A stretch of 64,000 nt of DNA from Trebouxia sp. TZW2008. Its lineage: Eukaryota; Chlorophyta; Trebouxiophyceae; Trebouxiales; Trebouxiaceae. The DNA lies in NCBI GenBank assembly GCA_002118135.1, contig BDIU01000192.1:310001-374000 (forward strand), written 5' to 3'. The position numbers were made by a program, and so were the translations under genes. The notes below the pieces were generated by a model. The model did no database searches. It saw only the letters and a program-made list of their open reading frames with translations, and was not told the origin of the DNA. Below are positions 63 to 58,153 of this stretch, one piece after another. Each line of letters begins with the position of its first letter. Positions within the stretch are counted from its first letter, which is position 1.

Positions 63-3000
63 ATGGCGCTTGGCCTGACTGAGTGGGTCGACTCGAAGCA
101 AGCGTGTCTGATAGCAGCGGGCGTCTTCGGACTGTGGAGGCTTGGAAACTTTGTCAGGTGAGGCTCTGCCCTGGAATGGCATTTGAGACAAGAGTTGTGT
201 CCAGGCCAGCTGTATGTCTCAGGGCTGATGCTGACATGAGCCTGTGGACCAAGCAAGAGCCCCCAGCGAACGCTTTTGAGGACCAGGTCGTCTGGATCAC
301 AGGAGCAAGTCAGGTACACGAGTGTGAACATGTCTGCAAGGGCAGTCCTTCTGTTTCATCAGACCGAGGACTGATGCCTGTAACACTAGCTCAGCGTGAC
401 ATCAACATCATTGTGGCATGCCAAACTGTGCCTGACATGCATGTCAACCTGAAGCAGCTGATGCATGCACCTCACAGGACCCAGTGCAGGTTTTACCACT
501 TTGAGTGAGCAGGCAGCCAGTCATCGTCAAATGACTTTCCATTGATGACATCAAAGGGAAGACCAACAACCTAGACCAACAAACCACAACCAGCAACCAA
601 CAGCCAGCAACCAACAATCAACAAACGAATCACAACAAAAAACCAGATAATAAGTAGCAAAAGTGCTGCTCAGGGGCTGGGAGAGGAGTTGGCGCTGTAC
701 TTTGCTGCACATGGAGCGCGCCTCATACTGTCCTCAAGAAAGGAAGACCAGCTTCAGGTGAGTTCACATGAAGAGCAGGCTCTGATGTAGTTGTGAAAAC
801 CCTGCCGAAAAACAACCAAAAAAGAAAGAAACAAAGGTTCATGCAATCAACTGTCATGAAGTGAGCCCCTACAAGCAGAAGCCGCCCAGGAAAGCCTGTA
901 CGTATTCATTCATTTTCATTTCACATGCATTCTAGGCAGGCTCAGCAGGCCCAACTAGGTACGTACAGGTGCAATCAACTGTCTCCAACCAATTCTGTCT
1001 TGTGCTAATCTGAACCATTTAAACTGACAGTGGGGGGTGGAGAGACTGTTGTACACTGTACGTATGCAAAGCATCACGGCTGGTTTCTTGACAGCGTGCA
1101 TGGTTGCAGAGGGTGAGAAGAAGATGTCTTGGGAAGCATGCCCCTGAGGGCATCAAGGTTCTGCCCTTTGACCTGATTGGGTCACCAGAAGAGCTTCAGC
1201 AAGCGGCATCTGCTGCTGTCAATGCATTCTCAGATGCGCCTTTAACTCATCTCATACACAATGCAGGTTTGCTCCATACATGTCACAAACTTTCATTGCC
1301 ATATTTTGGCACATGCAATCCGACTTGCTGTATGACTGAAGCATGTAAATGCTCCATCCTGCATGTAGCATGCATCACTGCATCACAATGCAGATGCACC
1401 TGTGGATGCCTCTTGACTCATGTAGTACATATTGCAGATTCACCTTTGTCAATGCATTCCCAGATGCCCCTTTGACTCATCTCATACACAATGCAGGTTT
1501 GGTCAGTTCTAATGGGATTTACCACATCGATGATCTCAGTTACTGTTCTCCTCCAGGGTACACTATGAAACGTCTCGACATTGACAATACATGTGACATA
1601 CATCACTGACGCATCTGAGGATGCCCTTGAATTTATGCAGTACATATTGCAAGTCTGCTGTTGTCAATGCATTCCCAGATGCCCCTTTGACTCATCTCAT
1701 ACACAATGCAGGTTTTGTCAGTTCTTATAAAATTTACCACATCGATGATCTCAGTTACTGTTTTCCTCCAGGGTACACTATGAAACGTCTCGACATTGAC
1801 AATACATGTGACATACATCACTGACGCATCTGAGGATGCCCTTGAATTTATGTAGTATATATTGCAAGTCTGCTGTTGTCAATGCATTTCCAGACGACCC
1901 CTTGACTCTTCTCATACACAGCGCAGGTCGCTTTCAGAATTGATGTGCATGTCCTGCTTCTGCCAGCAGCCTTACTTGTGCCAATCACCACCACGTTTCT
2001 GACGGACTGCTGACCCAGCGCTCGGCCGTAATCTGTCCATTCGCCAACACTGACTACAATGAACAAAGACAAACGAAGCAGATATGACAAGCACCGGCAG
2101 CAGGCATTAATGCCCCTTCAGAAGTCTACAGAGATGTTTCTGTTTCTGTCATTATTATCACTATCATTGCCACCATCACAATCATTCTCATTGTCATGAT
2201 GATTGTGATCATTGTAATCATTATTGTCACTTGGCACTTGTGCCGTTACTCAGGCTAGCACATGCAGGTGCAAGCCAGCATGCCCTGGCAGAAGATACCA
2301 CAGCAGAAGTCGCTCAGAAGCTGTTCCAGCTGAACACTCTGGGACCAATCAACCTGACTCAAGCCCTGCTGCCTCTTCTTCTTCACCCCAGCAATCATCA
2401 GCCAGATTCCAACCCTGAAAACCCTGCCCAACCCATACATGCAACAAGGCCGTGTCACATTACTGTTGTGGGGTCAATGGCTGGCAAAGTGCCCTCTCCA
2501 GGGCAGTCTGTGTACAGCGGCTGCAAAACTGCCCTCATGGGCTATTTTGCATCTCTTCAAGCTGAACTTGCAGCCAGGTACATTCCTGAATCACTCAGGA
2601 AATTCTCCTGGCCAGTGTGTGGTCAGCGGCTGCAAAAGCGCCCTGAAGGGTTACTTTTCATCTTTGCAAGCTGAACTTTCAGCTAGGTAGTGTCCTGCAG
2701 CAGTCACTTGCATGCTCATACAGCCTCATTTGGCTGGTGGGCAGTCTTTGCAAAGCAGCTGCAACAGTGTCCTGACGCTTTACTTGACATCTCTTCAAGC
2801 TCAACTTGCACCTAGGTAGTACCCTTAACCATTGCCTCGACTGCTCAGTCATGCAGTCTGGATACAGCGGGTGCAAAACTGCTCTCACGGCTACTTTGCA
2901 TTGCTCCAAGCTGAGAAATGTTGTCGCTGAAGCTGCACACACACTCTTATCTGCAAGTGCTTAACCTGAATGTCACAGAGAGTCTCAAGCAATTCATGAG

Positions 3001-14200: not shown

Positions 14201-17200
14201 GCAATTTTGCAGCTGTGAACTCATGTGATGGAGGCTGACCACTGCATGTGAAAACTGCAGTCAGCAATAATCCATACGTAGATTTGCCTTCTTCACATGC
14301 TTTGAGCTGTGCCTCTGTTGTTAGTCTGAGAGCATGCACGTCCAGTACATCGCAAGGTGCAGTTGCATCACAGCAAACATAAGGCCAAAAGGAGGCAGAT
14401 GTGCAGCTATGACCTCATGTGATGAAGGCTGACCATCACATGGGACACAGCCAGCACTTTTCCATACGGAGATCCGCCTTCCTCACATGGTGTGAGCTGT
14501 GCCTCTGCCATCAGTCTGATAATGTGCACGCCCAACACATCGCAAGGTGCAGCTGCGCCATAGTAATGATGAGGTTATAGATGGCAGATTTGAAGCTGTC
14601 AGTACATGTAATGAAGGCTCAACATCACATGGGAAAGCTGCAGCCAGCACTTTCCTCTGATGGTGGCCAGCCTTCGATACATGCTGTGAGCTGTGCCTCT
14701 GCCATCAGCCTGGTAACGCACACACAGCGCCTTGCAAGGCGCAGTTGCATCACAATTAACATAAGGCCAACAGGAGGCAGATTTGCAGCTATGGGTACAT
14801 GTAATGAAGGCTTACCATCACATTGGAAATCTGCAACCAGCACCTTTTCAATTTGAAGGTCAGATTTGAAGTTGTGCCTCTGCCATCACTTTGCCATCAC
14901 GCACACTCAGTAGGTCTTAAGCTACAGCTGTGCTGCTGTCAATGCAGGGTTGATGGGCTGCATATTTGCAGCTTAGCATAGTAAACCAGCCGGGACAAGA
15001 CTCAAATCATATGAGTCGACACAACAGTCACCATCACAACTATTGTGGCCTCACAGGCCACAGCTTCGTCTGCATGTGGCAGGCTTCAGGCACAGGCCTG
15101 TAACGCAGCCTTTTTGTAGCAGCACAGCATCAGTACTGTACAAGCGGTAATAGGGGGCTAGACGAGCATGTGGATGTGTGTGCAGGATCAAGCCTCAGCC
15201 AAGGCAATGTCTCCAGCAATAGCAGTTCAATAGCAATATAGTAGCGATATGGTCGCTATTTAGTTGCAAGACAGTAGCAGCAGAACTGTAGTACAACATC
15301 AGTGCAAGGCAAGCAGTATTGGTCGTCTAGATGAGCATGTGCAGGGTACAGCCTCAGCTAGGGCAGTGTCTCCAGTAAAAATGGCAGATTACGAAGCAGT
15401 CACAGCCTTGCAGTTACATCTCAAGTAGAGCAGACCTGACAGTGCAGACGAGCACGTGATCATGTATGTATGTGGGGGCTGGCCTCAGCCAAAGCAATGT
15501 CACCAGCAGAACTGGCAGAATACAAAGCAGTAGTAGCAGTACTATGAAACAGTATTGGCAGTCTATATGAGCATGTGATCACATTGGCAAGGCCATGGCC
15601 ATGATAGCACTCCAGTCACAGTAGTAAAGTAGCAGTGCAATAGAAGCAGTGATGGCTATCTTTTGAGACGTGTGATTGTGTGTGCAGGGTTTAGCCTCAG
15701 CCAAGGCCATGTCTCCAGCAGAAATGGCAGAGTATGAGGAGAAGAAGCTCAAGCAGTCCAGCTGTAGCAATACAGTGGTGATCCAGTGGCGCTACACCAG
15801 CAGTGCTATGGAAGCAGTGTGAGCAGTCTTCTCAAGCATGCGATTGTGTGTGCAGGGTACAGCTTCAGCTAAGGCAATGTCACCAGCGGAAATGGCAGAG
15901 TATGAGGAGAAGAAGCTCAAGATGCGCAAAGCTATGGGAGAGAACCTGCATGATGATGTACAAGGTGATACCCTGCACTACATTTATCCTCTTGGGGCCC
16001 TGTCATGACATAGACGCTCTTGATCCGTGCGCTTGTAGTGATTCAGCATGTGCTCAGACAGGGTTGCTCAAAGACATTTGCTTGGAGTGGTACGCAGCTA
16101 ACAAGGCCTTTGAGCCTGAATCACATGCGTTTTGATTGAGAGGTAGATAGATAGATGGCTTGTTGTTTCTGTTGAAAGCAATGCAGCTGGCATCACATGA
16201 TGCACTTGACCTACTGCAGCAATCCTATCATATGCACAGCGCTGCATTGGCTCAGATACCCTAGGCCCCTCCTCAGGATTTGCCCAGCAGCCTTAGCTGA
16301 CCAAAATTTGGGGCTGTAATTAGACACGCATTACATGCATTACACATGCATCAGCATGACTGAACAACCTTCTGCGCTCACCAGCATCAATGCCCAAGTT
16401 GCTGTGCTAAATAGGCAAGTGCTGTACTTTTATAGGGTCAGCAGACACGAACCTGGGCTGCTCCTTTGTGCATTGTCATATTATCAAGCAGGAAACTCAT
16501 GCTTGTGTTGAATTCTGCATATGACAGACTCACATGGCATTGACTGTTACACTGCTTATGACTCAGCAGACTCATACAATGCACAATCTTGCACTGTGGT
16601 TGCCACTGCGCATGCACCTCTGATCAAAGCCCAGAAGAAAGTTTAGTTCCTGCATTTCCTCAGCGGCAAATCAGGGCTCTGCACATCTTCTTGGCCGTGC
16701 TCAAGGGTGTTTGAGCGATGTCAATTGCATAACAGACTGATTGTGATATGAGCGTTCTGCATAAGGATCACCCAGACGCTCCCACTGCATCCGACTGCTG
16801 GGAAGGGGTCACATCTTAGCGTGTAGCACGTGCCACAATTCATCCTGTGAAACAGATACGCCGTGTAATTCTGCACATGGCAGGCCCATATGTGACCTCT
16901 ATTTTCCCTCTGCCTTTGACTCAACAGACTCTGTGGCAAAGGCCCTTCCTTTGCTCATGACTGTGTAGACCCACATGGCATATACTTCTTCTTCATTGCT
17001 TGTGTTGCACATGTAGCCTTGACGAAAGATCAAAGTGTGCCAAAAGCTCATGGTGACCACAACAGCGATTCTTACACTTGTGAGGTCTGCAATGACTTTG
17101 TGCACAATCTGATCTCAGATCAAGGCTAGATATGCATTGCAAGCAATAGCAAAAGTATATATGCCATCGCAGTTGGTGCACAATTTGTTACACAATTCCA

Positions 17201-31043: not shown

Positions 31044-34000
31044 ATGGTAACTTCACGCTTGCGCTGGATGCAATTCGGAAGCGTCGCGGCCCTGGTACTG
31101 CTCTGCTGTGCTGCCACCGCCCGTGCCGAAGGTGACGCACTTGCAACTTTTCAGGCTGCACTTGAGTCGCGTTGCGTGACAGCATCTGCAGCCTGCATCC
31201 GATGCATCGCGTGTCGACAACTCGGTCTGCTGCTGCACGAAGCTGCCGACAGTCAAGTGCTCATGCCAGCGGTCAACACAGTCCAGTCTGAGATGCTTTG
31301 CAGGCTTTCAGGCAACATCATACAGGCGACAGCTCAAGCAAGACTCAGCAGCTGTGGACATTGTCTCAGACCTGATCTCAGGCAACGCTGATGGAGCCAG
31401 TGCAGCAATTGCTTCAGCCTCTGCCAACAATGATGCTGCTGGCATCAGCTCAGCCTTGGCTAGTGCTGCTGCACTGGTGAGCACGGCACAACACTGAACA
31501 TGCAGATTTGAATCTTTCAATCCTTGAGTATAATAATGAGCTGTTGACTGCCTTGCTGCCTGCAAAGCTGCATCGCTTTGTAGTTTGCATGTCACACTGT
31601 GTAGGTCAGAGGCAAGGCAAACCCCAGCCTTCATATGTTTGCATGTGACAGACTTTGGAGTGTGTCATTGCGCCCTGCATCCCTCATCCCACGCATGTCA
31701 TGACACAGTTGAGACAGCTTCCATGCTCTGTCAGCACATCATGCACAGGTTTGGGGCTTTATGCGCTCACTTGATTCATTGCAGGGCAAAAGCACTCAAG
31801 CAGCCCAAGCCGTGGCTTCTGCAGTCAGCGCTCCCAACGCCAATGCTGGTGTCATCATACAAGCACTGTCCCAAGCGGTATGCACCATATTGCCTTGCCA
31901 CCACCAGCACCCAGAACGCCTGCATACTTGCGTGTTGCTTGCAAATGCAGCAAGACAAGTTTGCTTTGCTGTATGGAAAAGGCCATGCGCTCCTGTCATC
32001 ATGTCCCTAGCGTAGCAGTATCTACAGCAACTACTGTCAATCAAGTAACGGCGGTGACCAGCCAAACCCTTGTCACCAACCATTTGCTCTAGATGACACC
32101 ATCATCTCACACTGGCCAGCACTATCATATGATAACCAGAAATATCAGTATGCGCAGACCTGTTTTAAGAAAGTTTTGCTGCAGGGAGTAGACACTGGAT
32201 CCCCTGGAGCATCCCCTGGGGCAGTTTCCAGCAGCCCCTCTGGCAGCCCCTCCAGCAGCCCTTCCGCGAGCCCTGTTCCATCTAGCCCCGAAGCGGTAAG
32301 CACGATCAGTGCTGGTTACATGAGAGTCTTAAGCAAGACATGCCCAGACTGCTTTGACACATTTGCGATGCAGTTTGGCTTGGAGACTTTGCTATCTGAG
32401 CTGACACAAGCATGTTTAAAACAGCATGCATGCAAATTGTCTTGCATGGCATGAACAGAAGGTCAAGCCTGAACGCTTATGCATAGAGCGCTGCACTGAT
32501 GTCTGCATCCCGGGCTCACCACGCTGGTCAACAAAGCGCTTACTGCATGCATGACTATCGCTGCTGCATTGTCTTCCAAGTAGGCACATCTCAAGGCAGC
32601 TTACAGCCCCCACAGCAGTGGGCTAGCTTGTTGCCGCCAAAGCATGCAATCAATGATCATGACACAGGACTGACCAGGAAATTTGCTGCTGCAGATCAAC
32701 GCTGGTGATGTGGCCAACCAGCTTGGTGACACCGGAAGTAAGCTTTTCCTATACTGCATCTGCATGCTGTCATTGCACTAGTCCCATGGCAAAAGGCTGT
32801 GTTCATACTACTTTCACATTCTGCAGCAGTCTGTCGTGGATGCTGTTGCAGTGATTGCTTTCCAACTGAAAGTAGTTCATCATAGTCTTGCTGACTGCAA
32901 TGCTAGGTCAGGCTGGCTAGGCCTGATTCTGCAATGAACAAAGGCTTTCCTGGCATCTGTAAGGATCTCTGCTCCACCTGTGCATTTGGCTTTCTCCCTC
33001 AGCAGCTGTCACCTCCTGCAGTTTTACGGCTGTGCAAATCCAAGACATTTCATGTGCACCATGCAACACTGCATAGCCTGCATTGCCCTGATCTTCCTTT
33101 GAGCCAGAGCTCTTGCCTTTGTGACACAATCCTGCGCTCCATCAGAAACTCTGATCAATAGCACATAGTCCAGTTGCAACTGCTGCAGGTGTTATGATTC
33201 AAAAGTGGCCAATGAGCTTTCACTTCAAGTGCAGGCAGCTGTGGCTTGCATTCAACATAGGGGCCTTGCATATGCTGCTCTGCTGTGTTACATCACCACA
33301 GCTACAGCGTGGACTCTGTTCAGTAGCGCATTGTCAATCCAGGTAGCTGCAACTGCCTGCAGGTAGTGTGACTTCTGTGGCCAGCTCCAACTCCCAGGAC
33401 TTCACCACGGAAACTAATGCTGTGACCAAAGCAGTGTCTGACGCCTTCGCTCAGGTACTGCCCCACATGAAGTGTTGACTGTGTAGTCTTCATCTCATAG
33501 TGTCAATGTACGGTACACTGATGCTGTGACCAAGGCAGTCTGTGATGCCTTCACTCAGGTACTGCTGCTACCCCATACTGTCTGTACAGTTCCCTAGTAG
33601 TGATATTAGTCATTACACATTCCAGCACATGTGCATGTGCTAGGTGTGTGCGGCGCAAGTCCTGTCTCGCCAGGCAGGCTTGTTCTGAGCGTCTTTGTAG
33701 GGGCACCTGATATTCAACTTTTGAAACTCAGACAAACCAATGTCATTCCAGATCTTCTCTGGTGTTGTGTCAAGAACAGTGTCTGACGCCTTCACTTAGG
33801 TGCTGCAGCTACTCGACATTCACTGTACGGTACTCTGATGCTGTGTCAAGAAAGAGTGTCTGATGGCTTCAATCAGGTGCTGCAGCTACTTGACATTTAC
33901 TGTACAGTACAGTACGCTGATGCTGTGTCAAGGCCAGTGTCTGATGCCTTCAATCAGGCATTGCAGCTGCCGCACATGAAGTGCTGACTGTACAGTACTC

Positions 34001-39508: not shown

Positions 39509-42500
39509 TTACAACTTGGACTTTTGCTTGCTCATTCTGCTGCTGTGATATTCCTCTATGGTATCAGGATAAGGCGCACCACCTGCTGAGTATTCAATAT
39601 GGCTCCCTTGAGCTAAGAGCTCTCCAGTAGATTTTTGTCTGCAGCATCATCGAAGGCACCAATCAGGCACTCTGCACATCATGGTGACTGCGCTCAAATT
39701 GTTTCCAAGGAAATTGAGAGCATTTCAGCACCACATTGATGTCCAAAATCAATTGGCCCTTTGAATGTTTTGTTCTGTCATTATATGCAGCTGTCTGGGT
39801 TGCAAGTGCTGCCGTCAACAGAACATGCTGGACGTGCCTGCCATGCATGCCATTCATTGTGTCTCAGTTTATGATGCACAAAGCTTTTCACGAATATCAG
39901 CAGCTAATGCATTTGATGCCTGCCTTCACAGGGACACTTGCAGTTGCACGTGCAATGCTTGATTTCAGAAACAAAGTTCTGAGAGAATACACGTAGGTAC
40001 TTGCAATTGCAAAAACAATGCTTGATTTCAGAAAAAAAGTTTTGAGGTCATCAATCATGCAGCCCCAACATCAATGCTGTTGCCATGACAGAACCAAACA
40101 TGCAACACATTGCGCAATAGCAGCTGAAGCACTCTGACTAACAACTAAGACCAAGTTTGAAAGCTTGTAATTGATGTCATCAATTGACAAGGCAAAGACA
40201 ACATAAGTATGCTTGATGACAACTGACGCTTGATGACACACCCGAAAGACAAGTCAGCAACAGGGAAAGGCAGCTTGTGCACTCTTGATGTCAACAAGCA
40301 ATGCCAAGCAACACACCTGAAGTTGAATGCTCCTTAGCAAATGACAGAGTCTTGCCCAGCTGCACCATGTGCACTTTGACAAACAAACCCTCACCATTGG
40401 CAAAGGGTCAGAAGCAGCTTCAGCAATCATGATAACATGTTGTAAAATCTACAATTGTCGAGAATCCAGTGACGCACCTGAAGTTGACCTCAGCAAAGGT
40501 CAGAGTCTTGCACAGCTTTGCCATATGACACAAGCCCTCACGAATGGCTAGTAGTCAAATTTGAGTATGCATGACAATAGACAACAGCTGGTAAGCACTA
40601 AGTGACGCACCTGAGAGCTAAATACAGCAACACTGCCCAGCTTCTTCATGTGAGCTTCAACTAAAAATCTTCACCAATGGCTAAGGTCAGAAGCAACTTG
40701 AGCATTCATGATACCAATCAACAACTGGCACGTGTCGAGTGACGCACCTGAAGCTGACTTCAACAAAGGTCAGAGTCTTACCTGGCCTCACCATGTGATG
40801 TTTCAACGGAAAACGCTCACCAATGGCTGAGGATCAGAGGCAGTGTAAATATTCACAACAGCAATCACTATTGGACGCGTGCCGAGCAACTTACCTAAAA
40901 TTGACTTCAGCAAAGGTCAAAGTCTTGCCCGGCTTTACCATATGAGCTTCCACATACAAGTCCTCACCAATTGGCAAGGGAGCAAAGAAGTCTACAGAGA
41001 TTGTGACGCTGACGCTTTGCCTCTTATCTGCTGCTGCCAGTGCTGTGGTACTGATGAGATCCACTAGAGAGCAGTAGCAGCCAGCATGCAGGTGGTTCTG
41101 TGGATTGGACAGGCGGGCTGATGTTGGAAGGACTGCTGAACATCGACCAGAGCTGACTTTGATGTCCTGCAGAAGCAACACATACTGAGATCAACTGAAG
41201 AGCTGCAGTAGCTGGCATGCAGGTGGTGCTGTGACTAGTTGGTGAGCCTATATATATCATCAGAGCATTGCAGCAGCCACTTAGCAAAGCACCACTCACA
41301 CTGTGCAGAATTGTGCGGCATGAGCATCAGCTTAGGTATGAGCATTGTGACAGATACTCTCATGCCCAAGTGACCTTTGAGTCTCAAAGCACTGCTCACG
41401 TCTGCATGTAAGGGGGTCAGGTTCATTGCAGGGTTCAGTCATGCATAGCATGGAAGCCGAAGAAACACCTTGAGCAGACAACCTAATGTTGTGTCAAAAC
41501 AGCTGCAGTCTTCGCCACTGTAGCTGTCTGTCACCATGGCAATCCTTTGCAGCAGGGCATGCTTTGCACGCTCTGGGGCAGGGCTGGTCACAGAACTGCC
41601 CTGACTAGGGCTTCCTCCCAAACAACCCTGACTCGTCCCATGACTCCCATTTGAGGCCCCATTTGCCTCCTGTGATTCTGCGCATTGCTGCGGTTCCGCT
41701 GAGCTATATTTGGACACTGCATCAGCAGCACTTTGTGCTAACTGCTGCATGCTTGCCATAGCATTGGTTGCAGCAGCGCTCGCTTGCTGTGCAGCGTCAG
41801 TGGCTTGCAGTCTGACCGCAGCGTTGCTGACAGCATGACCTGCTTGCTGTGCTACATCACTAGCTTGCTGTGCAGCATCAGTGGCTTGCAGTCTAGCGGC
41901 AGCATTGCCGACAGCCTGACTGGCTTGCTGTGCAACATCTGTTGCTTGCAGTCTGGCTGCAGCATTGCTGACAGCATTACCTGCCTGCTGTGCAATGTCG
42001 GTAGCTTGCTTTGCAGAGTCTGTTGCTTGCAATCTGGCTGCAGCATTGCTGACAGCATGACCTGCCTGCTGTGCAATATCAGTAGCTTGATGGGCGAGCT
42101 CAGAAGCATGTGCTCTGACATCGGCAAAAGCAGAGGAGCCTTGTGCCTGCTGAGCAGTGCTTTGCAGCTGAGTTGCAGCGCTCTTGCCAGCAGCTTTGCT
42201 ATGCTGGGCAGCGTCTTGCAGCTGGCTTCCAGCACTGTAAGCATCAGCCTTGCCTTTCTCAGCAAAGCCTGATTCCTGCAGCTGAGTTGCAGCGCTTTGA
42301 GCAGCAGTTTTGCCCCTCTGAGCAGTGTTTTGCAAATGGTTTGCAGCGCTTTGAGCACCTGCTTTGCCATTCTCAGCAAGGCCTGACTCCTGCAGCTGTG
42401 TCAAGCTGCTATCTGCTGCTGCTTTGGTCTGTTGTGCAGCATCGGATTCCTGCAGCTTTGTTGTAGCATTGTCTATAGCGCCCTCTGCTTGCTGAGCAGC

Positions 42501-44430
42501 ATCTGAGTCTTGCAGCTTTCCTACAGTGCCTTTGATAGCAGCCTTTCGATGCTGAGCAAGACCTGACTCCTGAAGCTTTGTTGCAGCCTTGTATGCACCG
42601 CTCTGTAATTGCTGACCACTCTCTGATTCGTGTAGCGCTGTTGCAGTGCTGCTTGCGCTACTCTTCACTTGTTGAGCAGTATCTGAGTCTTGCAGCTGTG
42701 ATGCAATGCTGCTTGCAGCATCACTGGCCTTGTGAGCCATGTCTGTGACCTGCCCTTTGGCCATTGCAAAGCCTTTTGCCTTCTCAGCTGCAATGGAAGA
42801 GCTTGCCTGGAAAGAGCAGCAAACAGGCTTTATTGACAATCAAAAAAGCTGGAACCATCAATGCTGACTTTTTCTTCATGTCAGAGCCAAAATGGGCAAT
42901 TCAGTCAGTCACAAATCAGCTGAGGCAGTATAGCAGTGATAAAGAAAGTCATGGCAAACCGATGCAGTCTGTTGTGTGAGCATGAAATTTCAGATATATA
43001 TGCCATATAAAATCAATATGCATGGCCAGCAAGCAGACAACCACTACATGCAAGTTTCAAGCAGGATTCAAGGCCAAACAGCTACCTCGTTCTGCGCTGT
43101 GCTGTGTTGCCTGCTGTCTGCATCTGCGCCACTGTCCTGCTGTGCTGCTGCTGAAGAAGAGCGCAGCGCACTGTCAGCAGCCCGCTGAAGTCTGTTAGCA
43201 GCAGCCCTAACAGTCACGCCAGCCTGCCCAAAAGATGCCACGGCTTTCTGTCGCAGATCTGAGATAAGAATCCGTGTGCTGTCGCCACCTCCTGAAGAAG
43301 CGCTTGAATTACCATCGCCTGTTTGGTGGGGAACGCTGCCACTGTTGACATTTTGCCCATCTGTGTGCAGCATATGCTCAGCAGCGGTTTGTAATCGCTG
43401 AAGCGTGGATTTGGCTGCTGACGCTGCAGTGGTGAGGTAGGCTGAAGCTCTTGACTTGATAGTGTGGGGAGCCTGCTCAGTGTATCGGCCTTTGGCTATC
43501 AGTCTCTGGGACTTGGCATCTTGTAAGGTGACCTCCACAGATGCACTGATGCTTGTCACTGCAGGCCATTACATGGGTTGGGTGTTTGTAGCAAGGTGAT
43601 CAATGTCACAGCCAATGCAGGGCACTACATGGTTGGGTGTGTGTGCGCTTGTTGAGCAGATTCAGACCTCTGGTTGATATTATGCACGCTGGCTTTTACA
43701 AGTACACTGATATCTGTCACTGCAGGGCATTGCATGGGCTGAGTGTTTATGTCAATGTGATCTCTATGGATGCGCAGGTATATGCCACTGCAGCGCTTTG
43801 CGTGGGTTGAAGTTTTTGGCAGTCATGCATGGGGTTGCTGAGCAGGCTTAGGATCTGGGGCAATTGTGTGCAAGGCGCCAGCTTTTTTCCAAGACATGAC
43901 AGGTGACGCTGCCCGACCGTGAGCAGATGCCCAAATTCAACAGTCACTGCCCAAGCTGTTGACTGCACAACTTTATGATGCTTTTTTCGCCCTGACAAAT
44001 GCAAATGCAGACAGATTGCAAAAATCAATGACATGATGTGACAACTCCAACCGGCATTACTGGGATGGAAGTACATACCTGTAGTGACTCTGGCAACGAC
44101 TTCGACAACAGCGTCGCCTGGCATGGCGCTAAGGTAGTCTGTGGAGCTGCTGGTGACAATGCCAGACCTGGCAGCGAGTGTCTCCAAAGCTGTACCCGCC
44201 ATGATGCAGGTCAAGGCAGCCATGCAACCGCCGTTCATTGTGCCATAGTTATTCTGAAGTCGCGGGGTCACCATAAGCTTGCATTTGCACAAACCAGCCT
44301 CGGTCACAATCTCCTGTATGCTGTGCGCAACTGTTGCTTCGAAACTGCTAGTGGCATGCGGTTGAAAATCTGGTCTGTGTTGGCTGATCCAGTAGTGCAG
44401 CAGATCGTCGGCCTTCTCCGGGCTCCCCAT
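39509..44430 (-). CDS. Double hotdog thioesterase with long helical repeat linker
   Basis: Five exons on the minus strand: 44430-44079, 43558-43086, 42806-41469, 41166-40895 and 39638-39509 (2565 nt, 854 residues), all in phase. Residues ~40-149 form a THEM2/PaaI-type hotdog domain, and ~700-845 a second one. Domain 2 keeps the expected active-site pattern: LHAG (His748) and LVD (Asp757). Domain 1 has NGG (Asn66) and Cys75 where His and Asp are expected, so it may be inactive or structural. Between them lie ~550 Ala/Gln/Ser-rich residues with units such as AAARLQATDVAQQAS and KLQESDAAQQ, resembling LEA-type amphipathic helices. The likely role is acyl-CoA or related thioester hydrolysis in a multimer held by the repeat. 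An upstream in-frame ATG at 44529 exists. Confidence 0.8.
40300..40810 (-). repeat. Echo array of thioesterase exon 4 donor side (four copies)
   Basis: On the minus strand the exon 4 end (GKTLTFAEVNF) and donor, real end 40895, recur with ends at 40748, 40611, 40478 and 40317 (spacing 147, 137, 133 and 161 bp). The first reads LTFVEVSF. Copies carry GTGCGT at the donor while the real one has GTAAGT. Confidence 0.85.
41167..41290 (-). repeat. Echo of thioesterase exon 4 acceptor-side sequence
   Basis: On the minus strand, CCACCTGCATGCCAGCTACTG followed by a GATCTCA block copies part of exon 4 just upstream of the true acceptor, and runs straight into the real intron tail (TTGCTTCTGCAG). Confidence 0.65.
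41780..42770 (-). repeat. Coding tandem repeats in thioesterase exon 3
   Basis: Two families of in-frame repeats. Residues from the middle of exon 3 carry ~12-residue units of the LQESDAAQQ type. Its 3' part carries longer units of the form AVSNAAARLQATDxAQQA. DNA-level similarity between units is high, so they arose by tandem duplication. Confidence 0.8.
43590..43800 (-). repeat. Echo array of thioesterase exon 2 acceptor side
   Basis: On the minus strand, copies of the intron tail and exon 2 start (TGACAAGCATCAGTG after CTGCAG), real start 43558, begin at about 43612, 43719 and 43787. All follow a CCATGTAATGCC-like sequence. Only ~30 nt of exon remain recognisable in each. Confidence 0.7.
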
Positions 44431-44904: not shown

Positions 44905-47900
44905 ATGATCGGCGTTGGCCGCAAAGGCCTACAACAGTCTTTCACCCGCGCTCTCAGCAGCTGTTTGATTCAAACGCAGCCGGCACAATTTCTGCCGTCG
45001 GCCACTACAGTCGGTGCAGCATGCATGCATAGCAACCTTTTGCCGTACCAGCAGCTCAGTTCAATGAAGCGAAGTTTTGCCGCGACAGCCGATGAAAACT
45101 ACAACCCTGACGGACAGATGAGCGCCGTTACCTTTCATGGACCACGAACAATGAAGGTTTCTCAAAAACCCAAGCCAAGGCTAGAGACCTCAGGAGTGAG
45201 CACCCCTCAGGCACAAAATTAGATCAGGGAAAGATACGCTCATGACTACCTGCAACAGTAATCTCGCACAAACCATGCAAGTATCGGTGCAATGGGGCTT
45301 CACACATTGCACATAGTCATGCCTTAGTCACCTATGGCAACTCCAGCACTACACAGACCTCTATTCACAGCGCAAAGTTCTGCTATGAACATGCGCATCT
45401 CGCATAATGTTGTCAACCTCTGCATGCTGCTGTCTCATGGTCCAAGTCAGTTGTTCTACAAAGCAGAAGCACAGGCACAAGCAAAACCATTTCTTGCTGC
45501 AGGACGTGATTGTCAAAGTGACTATGTCAAGTATATGCGGCAGTGATATGCACCCATACGCTGGCAGAGGCGTCGCACTTGATAGTGGCATCACGTTTGG
45601 TCATGAGTACACTGGAGTCATTGTTGCGATTGGAGATCAGGTCGCTGTCCCCTCCTTGTCTGTCGGAAATGCTGTTTCTTGAGGAGCAATGATGCACCTC
45701 CAGGGATGCATTGTGCATTGGCATTTGCGGTATCATTTACACACACCAATGTGGGAGCTGTCAGCATTTGTGTAATGAGCTCTGAGGATTCTGCATGCGT
45801 ACAACATGCAGACAATCACGCCGTGCAGATTCTGCCTGACTGCAGCAGCAGGCAAGCTAGCATGTGTATATGACAGGCCTCTGATGCTACTGTTCACAAG
45901 CCACCATTCCATTTCCATCAGCAGCAGCTTGAGTGTTGTTGCATGTCGCGTTATCTCTGAACAGCTTTTCACCAACAGCTGGCTGAATGGTGCACGATGA
46001 ATGCCACCAGCAGCAACACAAGTGTCGTTGCATGTTGAATTACCTCTGAACAAGGTCTCACCAAAAGCTGGATGAATGGTGAACAATGGATGCTGATTTC
46101 AGGTCACAACATTGAAGGTGGGCGACCGCGTGGCTTCAGCCTTCTCCACTTCGTGTGGGCAGTGCTACTACTGCACCCATGCTCTCACCTGCCGATGTGA
46201 GGCAGGCGGCAGATTTGGTTGGATTGTTGACGGCAAAGGCATTGAGGGGGTGCAGGTGAAGCTTATCTGCGGCTTTGCTTTCTGTTCTGTAAACTTGTAC
46301 TTTCTGTTGAGCTTTTTTTGGCAAAAGAGCAGAGACAAGTCACATCAGTCACAATTCATTTCTTGCGCATTGGACTGGTATGTGACAGCCTTGCAATGCT
46401 GATGATTCTTTCTGGCCAATTGAGTTTCTGGACTATCCCTGATTGGACCATACCAAACCGAAGAGTTGCTTTTTGCTTCAGGCTGAGTATGTGAGGGTTC
46501 CCATGGCTGACAGTACTCTCATTCCCACCCCGGACAATGTCACAGACAAGGAGGCTCTGCTTGTGGGGGATGTTCTGCCCACAGGTATGCCATCAACAAC
46601 ATCAAAAAAGTCGTGCATTTTTGCGAATGGCATTCTAAGGCTTTGCTGAGCAATGTGCTGTGGCTTTCAGGCCGCATTGAATAGTACCTGATCCCGCATG
46701 TCTTGTATGCATTGTTTCTGCATGTCCTGCAGCACAATTGACCGTACCCCAATAATTTTCTGCGTCAGAAAGGTCCAGCAACATTGACATCGACTGACTG
46801 TTGGCTTTGTTGCTCTACTCAAGCTTGTGGTACCTACTGCACTGTGCCAGCAATATGGCAATTTATGGCAGTGACATGAAACTGCCTGAATTGGCATGAC
46901 ATTACCATGATCCTTAGTGCACCAGCTTTCCAAGGGGTCAAAAGAGTTCTGATGTTGCTGGTGTGGTTACAGGTTGGTTCTGTGCGTCACGAGGGGAGGT
47001 TGACAGAATGGCCAAAGAATTTCCTGATGATGCTACATCAGCTGCAGTGATTGGCTGTGGCCCAGTTGGACTCATGGCAATTCTTGCAGCTCAAGCTCAG
47101 GGTGCTCAGAAGGTGAGCTCAATGACATCTTTCTTGGGTGTTCATATATGTACAAGTATATGGCTGACATCATGACATGCACAGAAGGCAGACAGTAACA
47201 AAGCACTGCAGATAATTTAGGAGGGATCTGCAGTAACTTCCAATGGTTGCTGCAGGTAGTTGCGGTGGACACAGTGCAAGAACGGCCAGATCTAGCTAAG
47301 GAGTTTGGTGCTGTGCCTATCAATGTAGCTGACATGGAGTCTGCATTCAAGGTGGTCAACCACAATATTGCAGCATCTTCTGATGGTTGCTGCAGGTATT
47401 TGCCTTGGACACAGTGCAAGAGCGATTAGACCTAGCTAAGGAGTTTGGGGCTGTGCCAATACATGGGGCTGACAGGGACAAAGCACTGAAGATAATCAAG
47501 GAGGGGACTGAGGGCAGGGGGGTTGATTGTGCCCTTGAAGCTGTAGGAGCACAGCCTACCATCAAGCTGGCCTTTGACCTGATCAGAATGGGAGGTAATA
47601 ACATATTAATAGTGATAGCACAAGCATAATACAGTATGTTCGCGGAGTTATTGAACCCCCAAGATGTGGGTCTTGAGGGTTCTGCGTTTGGTCGCAGGAG
47701 TCGTACACTGTTGAAGTACACACTGATGCTGAATTCAATTTGCACTCAGTGAGTGGTCTGTTGGTTGCAGGAGTTATTTCTTCTGTTGGCCTGCACACTG
47801 ATGCTGAATTTAAGGCCTTCACACCAGCAGAGGGCTACAACAAGAATGTCACCTACAAAAATGGTGAGCAATTTCATCAACTTTGCTGGTCACTACATTT

Positions 47901-49475: not shown

Positions 49476-52400
49476 ATGAACCAGACAAAGCCCAATCAGC
49501 GCGCCAGAGCCTGCCTTCTTGTGCTCTGTGGACTGCCAGCAAGTGGCAAAACTGTCTTGAGCAGATTGATCGCCACGCACCTTGGCATGCATGCACCTGA
49601 GTTGAGCAAGCACAACATGCTTGTATCTCCGGGAGCGCTGAAGGCCAAAATGCTCGATAACACGCTTCCTGGGGTTTGGGACACAGTCTGTCAAGTGCTC
49701 TCGTTCGATGACTATGAAGCAGGTGGAGGCAAAAGTAGCCTTTGTAGCGTATAGTTGTTGCTATTGCACACTGAGTATCTGTTTTGTACTGCAGCAGAGC
49801 ATATGAACCTGAGAGCTGCCAAATCAGAATCAGACTTCAATCCTGCAACATGGAAGGTAACATCACGAAGCCTCTGCCTAGGCTTTTGCAGCATTTAATG
49901 CTTACCACCCCTTATGTTTCCCCGCACAATCACGGTGTATCATCATCATACGTTGTCAGCTGGCCTTGTCTTTGCAAAGTATATGAACATACGCCAAACA
50001 CATAAATTCCAACGTTTGAGCCAAACATCAACACTTAGCACTCTGCATTTGCATCGCTTCTTGCACATTTCCAGGCAGGCTTTACTTTCTTGGTCAGCCG
50101 GCTGCCACTCCATCTGGATGCACACGCTAGCTGCACATAGTACCAAACATGAACAGGTCACACATATTGTATTGGTCACACAGTCTGGAAGCGCCATTGT
50201 TAGGCAAAACATGTTGCCAGTACATGGTGTCAGCATTCAGTTTCTCAGCTGACTTGCTTATAAGTGTTTGCAGGAAGCCAGGGGCTCAGCGATAGACAGG
50301 GTTGAGGCGCATTTGCAAGCTGCATCAGCTCAATCTGGTGCATACCATCTGATCATTGTTGATGACAATATGTACTACAGGTAAGCAGGATCACTGCTTT
50401 GCTGCTACTTGCAGCACGCAATATGCCTTGTGTACCTGCTCACAACTGATCACAAAGTACCAAATGCCTTTGCACCCTGACTCCATGAAGCAGTTGTCAC
50501 CATGCTTGCATTGCTTCTTGCTGTCAAACTATGCATGCAGTCTCAGACTCAGTTGATTTACATGCTTTGGTCAATCTATTTCCCTTATTGCAACTAAATT
50601 AGCAAAGGAGCATTGCACTGCTACAGCACATACGGCTGAGGTCCATTCACAAAAACGCAGTTTCAAAGGTGACAGGAGTGACTGTCAAATGTTGCCAAGT
50701 GGTTTGCATGCTGGGTCTGCAAGCGAGCATTTTGGCGCTTCACTCTGGCAACATGAAGACGTATGTCCAAAGCGCATGCCTTGCTATGCTTCAGGAGCAT
50801 GAGGTACAGCTGTGTACAGCTAGCGCGCAAACATCAAGCAGCCTACATCCAACTGTACATACGGGTTCCCTTGAGAGTAGCTCTGCAAAGAAATGCTCTA
50901 CGACCACTGCCACACAGAGTGCCAGACAGCGTCATGCATCGCATGGCTAGCTTGCTTGAGCAGCCAAATGCTGATAAGCATGCATGGGAGGCCAACACTA
51001 TTGTGTTGGAAAGCGCCTGCTGGGAGAACAATAGCTGGTGTGGCATCATGTCTTATGCTTCTGCATATGGTTCAATGCTGTCAGATGCCATTTGCAGTAG
51101 TGTGCCCATGAGCTACAAGTCATTTCGCGGAATTATTGCTTGGGGTGCACCATTGAAGCAACATTGTCTGTGGTGCCTGAGTCACGGTAGAATGACACTG
51201 TGTAACACTTCTTGCTGTTGGCATGACAGCAACTGTCAGGCATGCTAAAAGCATGCGTCTTGACATCAGTCTCCAGATGTCATGATGCAACGATTCACAT
51301 TGGTTTCTGTTGCAGTGTTGAGGTGTGTCAGCAAATCTTGACGAGGTGGCAAGGCCCAGCAGTGCCGCCTGTTGACCCAGCAGAAGCTGAACAGGCCAGG
51401 CAAGCCAGCCAAGACGCCACACAGGCCAGCCTTGTGCACCAACTGGACCTCTTCTGCAGGAAGGAGGTGTCACATGCCATGCAGCAGCTCATGTCTCATC
51501 AGGCAAGTGTACAGAAAATGTCGCATGCAATGCCCTCTTGGAACTGATCTGCAGGAGGGAAGTGTCACATGCCATGCAGCAGCTCGTGTCTCAGCAGGCA
51601 AGCTTGTTTTACAGGTTGCTACACGCCATGCAGCAGCTCAACTTGCATGACGGTCGCCCTGATACATCATGCAAAGTCAAGCATCATCAAGTTTGAGCTG
51701 TACTACAACTTGCTTGCATTGTAGCTTGGTCAAATCTTGAGTCCTTGACATCAGACACCATGCAGCAGCTCAAATCCCTGTAGGCAAGTGCTGGTAAGTG
51801 TTGCACGCTATGCAAGAGCTCAACTCTGAGCAGAAAGTGGTCACATGCCATGCAGCAGCTCAAATCACATAATGCAAGGATTTTCCAGAATATGCCACAT
51901 GCCATGCAACAGGTCAAGTCTCAGCATGCAAGTGCTTTTGCGAATGTTTCACATGCCACGCCAAGGCGATCATTTTCAGACAACACGTGCCAGCAGATCA
52001 AGTCATGGCAGACAATCGCTGGACATTCTTCAACATGTGCTTGTCAAATTTGAGCTGCTGCTAGGCAATTGCACGTCTTGCTTGTCAGGCCTGACTTGCT
52101 GCCAGGCCTTCCCTGCTGAGAAATGCATTGCTCCCAAGAAGCAGCAGGAACTTCGGCAAGCACGTGTTAGCACATACCAGGGACTTGCTTGAACCTCAGC
52201 CGGCAAGAGAGGATGTCACATCTTATACACGTGCTCAAAGACTAGCAAGCAGACGTGACCAAGCTCTGTGTGACAAACAGATCTCACAGTCTCTTCACTG
52301 AGGTTGAAGTATGCAGTGTACAAGTTGGGTTGTGAGACTGGTCATCAGCGTGTGCTGCATGCTTGCAGGCTACGACAAAGAAGCAGATGTCTGACTTGTG

Positions 52401-52722
52401 ATCAGTGTGTACTGCATGCATGCTTGCAGGCTATGACAAAACAGCAGATGTCTGACTCATGACCAGTGTGTACAGCATGCAAGCTTGCAGTCTAAGACAA
52501 AACAGCACATGGCTCGCTTGTGATCAGTGTGTGCAACATGCATACTTGCAGGCTATGACAAAACAGCAGATGGCTGACACTGCCCAGCATCTCAATGCAC
52601 AGAAGCAAGCAGCTTTATCAGCACTGAAAGCGGCGACAGCACCACAGCTTCAGAGTGTGTACAAGCAACAGCAGGAGGCCTTCAGACATGCAACAGCACA
52701 GACTGTGACCAAGAAAGTGTGA
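49476..52722 (+). CDS. PSTK: L-seryl-tRNA(Sec) kinase
   Basis: Six exons: 49476-49722, 49795-49856, 50274-50380, 50795-51037, 51316-51502 and 52552-52722 (1017 nt, 338 residues; human PSTK 348), all in phase. The N-terminus has a kinase P-loop (GLPASGKT, residues 19-26), then SFDDYE, a Walker B-like region with IIVDDNMYYRSMRY, and the family-typical QLYIRVPLRVALQRNALRP and EQPNADKHAWEANT. PSTK phosphorylates Ser-tRNA(Sec), the step before SepSecS makes selenocysteyl-tRNA, so the organism should make selenoproteins. Exon 5 ends at a GC donor (CAG/GCAAGT). The donor of exon 4 (GTGTGG) is weak. Exon 5 has downstream echoes and exon 6 upstream echoes. Confidence 0.9.
51535..51980 (+). repeat. Echo array of PSTK exon 5 donor side with GC donors
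   Basis: The exon 5 end (SHAMQQLMSHQ) recurs after the true end at 51502. Clear copies end at 51597, 51783, about 51873 and 51927, and partial ones lie near 51650 and 51830. Several keep the GCAAG that follows the real exon, so the GC donor was copied with the exon edge. Confidence 0.8.
52369..52551 (+). repeat. Three 61-bp echoes of PSTK exon 6 acceptor side
   Basis: Copies of intron tail plus exon 6 start (AMTKQQM) begin at 52369, 52430 and 52491. The real exon begins at 52552, so spacing is exactly 61 bp each time. Identity is high. Each ends its exon-like part in a stop or drift into ATCAGTGTGT. Confidence 0.9.
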
Positions 52723-53842: not shown

Positions 53843-56800
53843 ATGTCGTCGGTCGTCGAGGCCGTGCTATTTGTCGCTGTCTCGCTCATCTCGGCGGCGA
53901 CTTGCTCTCAGCTTCGCCTGAATGAAGCGCAGGTCTGTACTGCGTTTGTCATGCATGTTCCGCATGTCGGATGCTCCGCCGATTGCTTGTTCAGCCAGCG
54001 GGACTTGCAGCACGCTTCAACGGTTGGTTATTGCACAGGTCGTCGGCACACATAACAGTTACCATTTGGCCCCTCCACAAGCGATCCAGGATCTTGCGTG
54101 GAACCCGCTGGTCGATGCTGTGGCAGCATCGTACGCGCAATCAGCCGTCAATACCACCCAATACAACCACCTAAGCTTGTATGACCAACTAGATATAGGT
54201 CAGCATTAATGACAATGCATGGGCTGTCACTTGCAAAGCTGTGCATGCAGTGCATTGCCGATAGCACCTCTGTACATGCTTGAACGCTTGCGAGTCACTC
54301 ACAACAGATGCAAAGCAGCTCACAATCCTGACTGTCAAATGCAAGCAATCATGCCAGCAGCAAGGCCACTAGCATTGTTCAATGGCTGTAGACGTAACAT
54401 GTGTGTCTCTTTGCGCAAAGCCAACATGATTTTCAGGGCTATTTCGCTATGTTATAGATTGCCTGAAGCTGATGGACACATAGTCAATGCCACTGTGTGG
54501 CACAACCTCCCAGCGGTTGAAGCATGGATGAATCGTCTTTTCTGCGCAAGCATGTGAAAGTCTTCCTGTTTGCTTGGCACTGCAGGTGTCAGAAGCGTCG
54601 AGATTGACATATATCCTGATCCATCGGGCAGTACCTATGACCAATCCGTTGCTCTTCAGCTAGCAGGGGTTAGTGGATGGCAGAACAACTCAGGCCTTCA
54701 AGCTCCTGGCTTTAAGGTAAATTCATCATTCCCATCTGATGCAAGGTGCAAAACTTGAGCTTGCATGAGCTTGTAGCATGCTGGATATCTGCTCACTGGT
54801 GGTTGGCAGGGGCTTGCAACCGTCACTACAAATAAGCAAAAGAGGGGGGGGAGGAAGTAGCCTAGTGCAATTTATGCATGTATACCGCAACCTAATGGCT
54901 TGGCAGCTGCCCTTGCTCTTAGCCAGAGAGCAGAATGACACTCATATTGCTGCTCTTTTACTCTTTTCAACAGTGTAGATGACTATGCATATGAAAGGGA
55001 GCCGCACATATGCGTCGCTCTGTCAGCAGACTCGTTACCTCAGCAAAAGCAGCATACTTCAGTGAAGTTGCCTCAAAATGGTGATGAGATTGTGTTTTCT
55101 GCAGAAATCTGGATTTGATACAGCCAACATTTAGCAGGCAGCTGACGCATTGTGTTGCAATTGCAGGTGATGCATGTGCCTGACATTGATTTTGGGTCCA
55201 CATGCCTCAACTTCACTAGTTGTATGGGGCTCATCCAAGCATGGCATCAAGATAATCCAGGTCATTTTCCATTGACCCTCTTCCTCAACCAAAAGGTGGA
55301 TGGGCTTGCGAGCTACCTGGGAGACGAAGGGTCAACTTTGTTGACTGCGGTCATGTCGACGTCCACCACTCCTGGACCTGACACGTGAGACCTGTTGGCT
55401 AATCAAGCCTTGCGCTTTTCTGCTTTTGCAAAGGGTTTCTAACATTCCTGGCGATCGTGTACGCATTATTGTTGCTGCTTCCTGTCATTCACCATGCTAG
55501 CATGCAGAGCTTTTCATGTCATGTGACCATGTTGCTGCTGCTATCTGTCGTCCATCATGCATTGCAAATGTTGTCCTACGTGGGTATCAGTCATGTTTGA
55601 TTATTGTGTGCACAAAGTGCAGAGCTGGCAAGGCTGAGCGTGACCATTGCCAATCTTCAACAGGATTTGTCATCACTAGTCAGCAGCTGCCCAACTGGCT
55701 TGAGCAAAGCTATGTATGTAATTCATTACCCAGTGTTCCGTGATGCTCAGAACAAGCCAGCCTGGCAAGACAAGACTTGTGCCACTAACACCAAGCACCC
55801 TTGCTGGAAAGTGTAGACATTGTCAGTACTCACCAGTGTTCACTGTTCAGGTATATCACGGTGCCGCCATTTGATGACACCAGCTACAACCAGATTGAGA
55901 CTCAGATATTGACCTTCTTCAACAGGAGCGACATTGTGACCCCAGATGAAGTGCGGGGAAGCTACTCCACACTATCACAGGCTGTGTTGCAAAACACAAG
56001 GTATGCAATGTCTCTGCATTTGGAATGGCTGATTGACATCGGCAGATCTTAGCTGTTGCCCAAAAGTTGATGTCCTGTGGCCAGGCAGACTCATGTTGCC
56101 ATCAGCACACAAAACATCTTTACATTCTGCTGCACTGCCCATTCATGTCTCGCAATTCCTGACAAGGTTAATGACATTGTTGCACTAGCTCTGCAGTTCA
56201 AGTCACAGTGGACCAAGTTGACTGTTATTGGACCGCATTAACTTGATGTCAGTCTGGTTAAACAGTTCACATCAATACATGATGATTCTGGGCAAAATAA
56301 ATCTTGAGGCAGCTCACTGTTGTTATATGCAGCCAGCAGGGTCACAGCACTTCATCAGTCAGCTTCTGTATGTTGTCATTGACACTGTCTTGTAAGGCTT
56401 TGCAGTGCTGGGTACCATGGACCAGGTTGGCCATTACTAGACTCTGTCAGAGGCCAAAATTTTGCTTGTCTGGACGCCAGAAAGTGAAAATTTTCAATTG
56501 AATGACTCTGTATACTGGCTTTGCAGCGCTGGGTACAATGGACCAGGCTGGCCTTTGCTAGACACTCTTAGAGGACGAATCTTCCTTGTCTGGACGCCAG
56601 AAAGTGATGGCGGCTACCTGGGTCTGCACCCGAATCTGGCAGGCGCTTTGTGTTGGGTCAGTGGTGTTGATGGCAACTCTGGTGACAATGGAGGCACCAC
56701 AGCCACAGACCCAGCAATTGTGTTCATCCAGACCTATGAGACGCTTTCTTGGAGCTCTCCTGTCACTGCAAGAGAGATTTCGTCCTTCAATAAGAAGGTG

Positions 56801-58153
56801 CCCTGCTGAGCGCTTGACTGTAGAGTAATAGACTTGGGGTTCAGTTCATGTTTGGTATCTCAGAACTTTGCTTGCACTCTACATTTGGGCATCGGTGCGC
56901 CCCTGTGCCGTCTGTGCTGCAGGTGATGTGTGTCGATTTGACCGTGGTGGTAATGCTTATGCGTGCTGACAAGTGGCATCCTTGTCATGGCTATAGCAGC
57001 ATGTTTAATTGACATCTAGCATTGCACGCAGTGACTGTGATTTTGATGCGATATCTGGTGGAATCACTTATCAATACCATAGCATCGTGGGTGTCTTCAA
57101 TGGAACCCACTGCCCTCAGGTCTTGTTTCTCATTCTTTGCGGCATTTCAGCCAAGCATTCACCTTTCGCAGATCGCCTAGTGCAGCATACATGCTAGAGA
57201 GTCAGGGAACACTTGCTACATGACAATTAGCTTTGCTGAAGACTGTCTTCATCGACGTGAAGCTTGCTTTTTGAGCCACTTTACCCAGCTTGCATGTGCT
57301 GCAGATTGCCCAGCGCAGCACACGCGCTAGAGAGCTAGTGAATGCTGGCTACATGACTATCAGTTTTGTGGATGAGGACTGTAATGAAGCTAGGTATAAC
57401 TACACAAACCGACGGGACTCCTTGACAGCAGCTGGCTCCCAGATACTCAAGACCAACTTCCCCACCCCTCCTACATTCTTTCCATCCAATTTCACGGTAT
57501 GCATTCTCATCTGCCACTGTTCCTGTTGTTGCATAACATGCATCAAGTAATATCACAACCCCTACATTCTGTCAGAGAAGCTCCTGGGATATGCATTACA
57601 TGCAAATGGCTCCTTTTGACCGCAGTTAGAGGTAAGATGCATTTCACTGCTCATATGTGATGCATGCCATACACTTGCCTGCCCATACATGCTTGCATGC
57701 AGGACATTGTCCAGTGGACAGTTGATGCAAAGCGTGCTAAACGCAGATGGCTCCATTTGACAGCAGATACAAAGCCGCATTGCACTTGGCTGCTAATGCA
57801 TGCTGCATTTTACAGGCAAACTAGTGCTCAATCAGCAGAGTACGCTATGCATGTCACAAGCAGTTGATGTTCACTATGTCAAACGCAGTTGGCTCCCTTT
57901 GACAGCCATGTAGGGGTGTCATACAGTCCTCTGCTTGCGCATGTTGCACGCAAAGCACAGTTCAACCAGTAGTTGACACAAGTTGCGTCACTTGCAGATG
58001 GCTCCCTTTGATAGTAACCTAGGGGCGCGTTGCAATCCAGTCAACACCCAAAACAGTACTACCCCAGCTGCAGACGGCAAGACGACGGCCACATATTGCT
58101 CGGTGACAGATCTACAGCCAGCAAGCACTGCATCAATGGCCACAGCTGGATGA
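53843..58153 (+). CDS. Secreted PI-PLC-like phosphodiesterase (Ca2+-dependent PLC-C1 type)
   Basis: Eight exons: 53843-53932, 54039-54198, 54586-54716, 55167-55384, 55851-56000, 56527-56797, 57305-57496 and 57998-58153 (1368 nt, 455 residues), all in phase. A signal peptide opens the protein (VLFVAVSLISAATC). The catalytic-barrel start is clear: VVGTHNSYH (His35), DQLDIGVRSVEIDIYPDP, and later PDIDFGSTCLNF, LTLFLNQK, DIVTPDEVRG, GRIFLVWTPES and FVDEDCNEARYN. The layout fits the bacterial/algal calcium-dependent phosphoinositide phospholipase C family, which cleaves phosphodiesters outside the cell or in the secretory path; the substrate here is unknown. The donor of exon 6 (GTGCCC) is poor and needs RNA support. 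Exons 6, 7 and 8 have upstream echoes. Confidence 0.85.
55730..55800 (-). repeat. Dispersed repeat family A, copy 4 (inverted)
   Basis: GCTCAGAACAAGCCAGCCTGG, CAAGACAAGACTTGTGCCAC and ACACC form the reverse complement of the family A core, in an intron of the PI-PLC-like gene. Confidence 0.7.
56390..56526 (+). repeat. Echo of PI-PLC-like exon 6 acceptor side
   Basis: A 121-bp unit. GGCTTTGCAG followed at 56406 by exon-like sequence (GCTGGGTACCATGGACCAGG) through CTTGTCTGGACGCCAGAAAG, before the true exon at 56527. About 95 nt of exon are copied. Confidence 0.85.
57160..57304 (+). repeat. Echo of PI-PLC-like exon 7 acceptor side
   Basis: TTTCGCAG then exon-like sequence from 57172, 133 bp before the true start at 57305. 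About 80 nt are copied (GCATACATGCTAGAGAG versus GCACACGCGCTAGAGAG). Confidence 0.8.
57598..57935 (+). repeat. Echo array of PI-PLC-like exon 8 acceptor side (three copies)
   Basis: Copies of the exon 8 start (ATGGCTCCCTTTGA) begin at 57605, 57747 and 57889, exactly 142 bp apart. The real start is 57998. The last two keep CGCAG. Confidence 0.85.

Follow-up and report, generated by a model that had tools for sequence, protein, structure and literature searches.

Why should an intron carry, head to tail, copies of the very exon edge that it adjoins? This question is raised by a stretch of 64,000 nucleotides (the window, C184:310001-374000) from Trebouxia sp. TZW2008, a lichen-dwelling green alga. 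Here, an earlier note made from the letters alone had described such copies on both strands and in unrelated genes, and had proposed a genome-wide process rather than the history of a single gene. Self-comparison of the DNA bears out both points, and we consider it likely, with real room for doubt, that introns of this alga lengthen by local tandem duplications among which those crossing an exon edge are in excess. The host genome comprises 68.5 Mb in 527 contigs, and a Trebouxia sp. C0005 protein matches the window's alcohol dehydrogenase at 93% identity. Six published Trebouxia genomes have sizes of 63-74 Mb and GC contents of 49.6-51.1%, according to PMC11523091.

Copies of exon edges in introns and their fate

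Counts were made in a wider region around the window (264 kb, C184:110001-374000), which also served to train a purpose-written hidden Markov gene finder predicting exons ab initio. We retained 346 of 446 predicted exons, dropping 100 that scored below 3 bits or were judged to be repeat copies. The 211 introns classed as strict all end in AG, with 198 starting in GT and 13 in GC, GC-AG introns thus being frequent among the predictions. Four proteins were named using Pfam (short-chain dehydrogenase, NifU, PI-PLC, and alcohol dehydrogenase); the short-chain-dehydrogenase gene (PF00106) is presumably FVT1-like. Gene models were checked against proteins in three genes, which flipped the label of two window arrays.

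Self-comparison yielded 412 direct-repeat pairs at offsets of up to 2 kb, compared to 7 matches with the reversed sequence and 3 inverted pairs, these controls having been run on non-overlapping 4-kb chunks and the direct search on overlapping ones. A copy was accepted at a blastn E value of at most 1e-4 and at least 30 aligned bases, shorter blocks being dropped. The pairs spanning 30 bases or more group into 151 arrays with a median unit of 144 bp: 114 touch an exon edge (107 in genes), 24 are purely noncoding (18 in genes), and 13 are exonic. A copy in the neighboring intron is seen for 106 of the 618 internal exon edges, for acceptor edges more often than for donor edges (63/309 versus 43/309; Fisher p=0.042). 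Single-copy offsets (n=59) center on 157 bases (5-95%, 115-264), and intact tandem units are present at 12 loci. The same pattern is seen in 24 loci on other contigs (6 of 30 having been dropped for overlap with others), where 27 of 31 arrays reach an exon edge; these loci were chosen for a DEAD-helicase exon and are exon-centered.

An obvious concern was that the copies might serve as alternative exons or belong, as exons, to gene parts duplicated in tandem. An example to the contrary is given by the NFU gene (11.2-21.2 kb of the window), whose model is 99% identical to the 587-amino-acid database protein P0122. Judging from its source's longest contig, of 2,076 bases, P0122 must be the product of a spliced RNA. 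It matches 11204-11521, 11647-11799, 12468-12650, 15853-15969, 18240-18350, 18882-19319, 20255-20485, and 20912-21169 (match ends, untrimmed to splice sites). Each stretch is single in P0122, so every NFU copy is skipped, including 19938-20247, and the array at 12801-14973 falls inside an intron, contrary to its script label. Similarly, the PI-PLC sequence is single in P0242 (69% identical), and that of alcohol dehydrogenase is single in P0001, a predicted protein of a congener. With the last PI-PLC exon lying at 57998-58150, as P0242 indicates, the array at 57719-57906 becomes acceptor-side. Within NFU, 19938-20382 shows a 159-base (53-codon) offset, 97% identity, and an open frame; the gene finder read it as one exon, and P0122 skips the copies, which may still be included alternatively.

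The sequence of the copies points the same way. Compared with their exons, the 106 copies differ by 0.132, 0.103, and 0.254 at codon positions 1, 2, and 3, and they hold 25 in-frame stops, against a neutral expectation of 26-32. Of these copies, 47 are disabled by a stop or by a frameshift within the exon part. Splice dinucleotides are retained in 49/58 acceptors (AG) and 33/39 donors (GT or GC), compared to 78% in the control (p 0.11 and 0.44), and mean splice-site scores are lower in copies than at true sites (4.52 versus 6.72; 2.91 versus 5.20). Most copies thus look neutral. Identities of edge-crossing copies are 72, 81, and 87% at the 10, 50, and 90% points, a difference of ∼12-30% from the exon that rules out an assembly artifact. 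The earlier note's impression that copies nearest the exon are generally best preserved found no clear support: at 31 edges with at least two copies, the nearest was better in 17, worse in 13, and tied in 1.

A functional role would sit well with the 59 of 106 copies that have neither an in-frame stop nor an exon-part frameshift, with the mostly retained splice dinucleotides, and with an excess of third-position differences and a depletion of gaps, both quantified below. However, given the neutral stop number, the disabled copies, and dinucleotide retention no different from the control, we consider functional exons very unlikely. In the three genes that can be checked against proteins, the copies read as the spliced-out debris of tandem duplications and not as ordinary exons, given stops at the neutral rate and products that skip them; the refuting case raised in the earlier note, that they are ordinary exons, finds no support there.

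Excess of edge-crossing duplications

Random duplication followed by selection already predicts many edge-crossing cases, since the units are not much shorter than the introns. Geometry alone would have 41-54% of the tolerated duplications crossing an edge, and a cruder formula gives ∼50 of 88. The 211 strict introns hold 88 arrays, of which 79 were observed to cross (33 donor-side, 47 acceptor-side, one both), as were 17 of 19 arrays in 64 strict introns on other contigs. Because the exon half barely changes, detection favors edge-crossing copies and fairer tests are needed. Of 12 duplications that are young and nearly intact, 11 run across an edge (p 0.0008-0.007). Using similarity between noncoding parts only, 32 of 43 do so, compared to the 0.44 expected (p=5e-5), with 18/22 at identities of at least 80% (p=2e-4) and 8/10 at 85% or above (p=0.017). 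By both this test and the count of 79 in 88, repeat units overlap exon edges above expectation.

Could survivorship produce this pattern? In its plain form, the placement of duplications is uniform, exon-internal ones are purged, and those crossing an edge are tolerated and remain visible for longer through their constrained exon copy, with no preference for edges. The geometric expectation lends it support, and so does the fact that very young copies are few, which gives one-sided decay a role. We turned to forward simulations comprising substitutions, indels, duplications, deletions, and an identical detection step. The observed ratio of edge-crossing to noncoding arrays is 107:18, or 46:16 with exons masked. 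Fifteen uniform runs gave unmasked ratios of 0.66-2.2, save one at 6.7, and masked ratios of at most 0.92, so that none matched both observations. At higher indel rates (0.25-0.4), uniform runs gave 79:71, 76:53, and 89:82, and the excess remains. By contrast, a 4-5-fold preference for edge-crossing duplications roughly reproduces both ratios: unmasked and masked, runs with 5-fold preference gave 97:24 and 33:20, 92:17 and 29:14, and 72:8 and 7:9, and those with 4-fold preference 96:19 and 45:19, and 86:17 and 20:16. Early junction-preference runs (275:99, 243:98, 369:121), in which events were too numerous and introns overlong, were redone at a lower number of events. As far as ab initio gene models allow, duplications that cross an edge thus exceed, relative to purely intronic ones and by ∼3-5 fold, what uniform placement combined with decay and detection would give. 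Survivorship by itself falls short of explaining the excess at edges; as the whole explanation, we regard it as unlikely, though it retains a real chance.

We picture the favored process, intron growth by local tandem duplication, as follows. Introns of this genome hold many local tandem duplications, successive events building arrays. Where a unit spans an exon edge, the exon keeps the copy joined to it, and the other, splice site included, comes to lie inside the intron; this intronic copy is missing from those products open to checking and gathers stops at the neutral rate. Segments containing exon sequence would be duplicated, or retained afterward, several times more often than purely noncoding ones, and selection would purge most duplications within exons while sparing those hidden by splicing.

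Several observations weigh against this reading. The uniform run with the longest quiet phase reached 40:6 unmasked, as survivorship would have it, though only 1:5 masked. The third-position ratio is 2.42 (95% 2.17-2.70), compared to 1.63-1.70 in a neutral-copy model, and remains at 2.14 (1.83-2.50) for those disabled copies that the gene finder never called exons, where disabled includes gaps anywhere in the block, intron part included, while the 47 of 106 above uses the exon part alone. The exon part of copies has 0.044 gaps per substitution versus 0.088 in noncoding pairs (p=8e-7), a difference that exon-side substitutions account for only in part. Of 63 testable cases, 27 show a detectable intron side of the unit (43%; other counts 17/40 and 39/85), compared to 61-83% (three settings) and 65-92% (five settings) in simulations of plain duplication. 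Finally, the gene models themselves are ab initio.

The intron side is where copying bounded by splice sites has its best argument. Here, exon edges would be written back into the intron, for instance by repair that uses pre-mRNA or a splicing intermediate as its template. In 46 of 85 testable pairs (21 of the 106 having been left out, with spacers outside the testable range), the intron side shows no detectable similarity, and homology fades at a median of 5 bases into the intron, close to the splice site; plain duplication predicts far fewer such cases. One-sided constraint accounts for this fading point, though in the simulations not for its frequency, and the cause may be fast intron turnover or splice-site-bounded copying. 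In contrast, the young intact units are plain, ordinary tandem duplications that include long intron stretches; microhomology at their breakpoints was inspected by eye in the alignments, where clean cases are few. Nor did we find a good signature of complementary DNA (cDNA). Of 80 cases, 14 were loosely positive, and of the top two of these, one proved to be a plain duplication next to a predicted exon that is spurious; the other was read as sequence only. We accordingly give little credence to splice-site-bounded copying as the source of the copies, and only slightly more to its strong form, in which active RNA-templated or splicing-coupled repair builds introns largely from successive fossil copies of exon edges. 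The earlier statement that the adjoining intron end is copied along with the exon edge is right for the splice dinucleotide, which is usually kept; for the intron beyond it, similarity can be detected in fewer than half of the testable cases.

Returning to tandem duplication, what exactly is preferred? The overlap of an array into the exon ranges from 0.21 to 1.13 of the unit (5-95%), without a fixed position of the junction in the unit. Moreover, offsets are divisible by three in 8 of the 13 exonic arrays, indicating that frame-keeping duplications also occur inside exons. Both observations fit duplication-prone exon-containing DNA, and both are compatible with a junction target. Of the suggested process acting on splice junctions, the over-representation of edge-crossing duplications is supported; a targeting of the junctions themselves stays a conjecture. 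Nucleosome repeats and Okazaki fragments have sizes near 157 bases, and a link of the single-copy offsets to either is only a thought.

Arrays and other repeats of the window

The earlier note had counted more than 20 introns in nine genes. We confirm the copies at a lower number, accepting 18 exon edges in 8 window genes. These derive from 21 window arrays labeled junction-crossing by the script, of which three were dropped: 12801-14973 (wholly intronic according to P0122), 3192-4218 (exon uncertain), and 24787-26429 (dispersed repeat). The arrays at 47187 and 47229 were merged as one edge, and 57719-57906, purely noncoding according to the script, was added, the true exon starting at ∼57998.

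1209..1928, plus strand: donor-side array of short-chain-dehydrogenase exon 1110-1266; copies ∼1447-1504, 1654-1713, and 1869-1928
2495..2914, plus strand: donor-side array of short-chain-dehydrogenase exon 2268-2577; copies ∼2604-2691, 2739-2820, and 2853-2914
15121..15921, plus strand: acceptor-side array of NFU exon 15856-15964; copies ∼15165-15217, 15338-15400, 15467-15531, and 15631-15753, skipped by P0122
18717..18910, plus strand: acceptor-side copy 18717-18753 of the NFU exon starting at 18883, skipped by P0122
19759..20382, plus strand: acceptor-side array of the NFU exon starting at ∼20256 in P0122; copies 19760-19837, 19938-20088, and 20089-20247, skipped by P0122
20435..20687, plus strand: donor-side copy 20638-20687 of the NFU exon ending at 20479, skipped by P0122
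25380..25549, minus strand: acceptor-side copy 25485-25549 of predicted exon 25288-25420
33413..34073, plus strand: donor-side array of exon 33363-33454; copies 33517-33565 and, interrupted, 33757-34070
40270..40980, minus strand: donor-side array of predicted exon 40895-41166
41055..41233, minus strand: acceptor-side copy 41186-41233 of predicted exon 40895-41166
43544..43762, minus strand: acceptor-side copy 43705-43762 of predicted exon 43086-43558; intron part also duplicated
47187..47505, plus strand: acceptor-side copy 47229-47338 of alcohol dehydrogenase exon 47396-47594, absent from the congener protein P0001
48343..48584, plus strand: acceptor-side copy 48343-48432 of the last alcohol dehydrogenase exon, starting at 48533; intron part also duplicated
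51444..51934, plus strand: donor-side array of an exon ending near 51503 with a GC donor; limits read by eye
52336..52587, plus strand: acceptor-side array of ∼60-base units upstream of predicted exon 52552-52716
56396..56607, plus strand: acceptor-side copy 56396-56487 of PI-PLC exon 56527-56797, single in P0242
57168..57382, plus strand: acceptor-side copy 57168-57246 of PI-PLC exon 57305-57496, single in P0242
57719..58020, plus strand: acceptor-side copies of the last PI-PLC exon, 57998-58150 according to P0242

Two conserved genes, 7768-10667 and 27797-30234, which we take to be aldolase-like and Rpn11-like, respectively, showed no detected exon-edge copy, unlike most of their neighbors. 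Other repeats of the window include a dispersed, mobile-element-like repeat of ∼75-144 bases and 76-84% identity (24776-24913, 26326-26432, 33601-33744, and, on the minus strand, 55741-55816), with more copies in the 264 kb. A short dispersed repeat at 884-1059 and 63307-63408 also has more copies there. An inverted pair, 37252-37611 and 59472-59853 (389 aligned bases, 74.6% identity), flanks genes and is likewise mobile-element-like. A direct pair, 19357-19467 and 25018-25128 (83% identity), lies ∼5.7 kb apart with one copy in an NFU intron. Finally, 41779-42697 holds in-frame repeats with offsets of 81 and 114 in one long minus-strand predicted exon with an Ala/Gln-rich product.

Significance and relation to known systems

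How introns lengthen, and why their sizes differ between genomes, is an open question, and here growth is visible as a repeated process. The old exon-edge copies give each exon a neutral standard close at hand, and they put the spliceosome to a natural test of how it passes over copies of real splice sites lying so near. Should exon-containing DNA indeed undergo duplication several times more often than purely noncoding DNA, this would amount to a mutational or retention bias that, to our knowledge, has not been described. The copies also carry a warning for annotation, as they can be mistaken for exons; our gene finder had called 17 of the 106 exons.

Among the papers listed by literature searches, no report of pervasive exon-edge copies in introns was seen. 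The word intron is absent from the accessible part of PMC11523091 on Trebouxia genomes, and occurs once in PMC12712428, in the reference list.

Among known systems, introners likewise change introns genome-wide and are known from green algae (PMC9860276). A mobile or introner-like element inserted with a target duplication would have a precedent in this group. However, introners share sequence between loci, and the two Trebouxia arrays searched genome-wide match their own locus only, in a search that skips very common words; we find such an element barely credible here. Intron gain by tandem genomic duplication, as described in PMC3443670, turns a duplicated exonic AGGT segment into an intron. 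It shares with Trebouxia the tandem duplication and the splice sites lying in the duplicated segment, but this route was seen in 0 of 211 strict introns, among which no detected pair has an offset equal to the intron length. The intron gain by duplication across splice sites that the earlier note had invoked thus finds no example there. A further parallel is the potato RdRp gene, in which, according to PMC4974935, one recent tandem duplication across an intron-exon boundary duplicated the splice signals. That single case made a new intron, whereas in Trebouxia an old intron merely lengthens.

Another likeness is to internal gene duplication. Gao and Lynch are said to have described this in 2009 as tandem duplication of within-gene segments, exon-intron boundaries included. 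The Trebouxia copies, too, are adjacent and head to tail, as the direct and inverted pair counts attest. Unlike in that system, they are mostly hidden in introns, very dense along the internal edges, and biased toward exon edges. Boundary-crossing internal duplication is thus already known; its density and edge bias in this alga look new.

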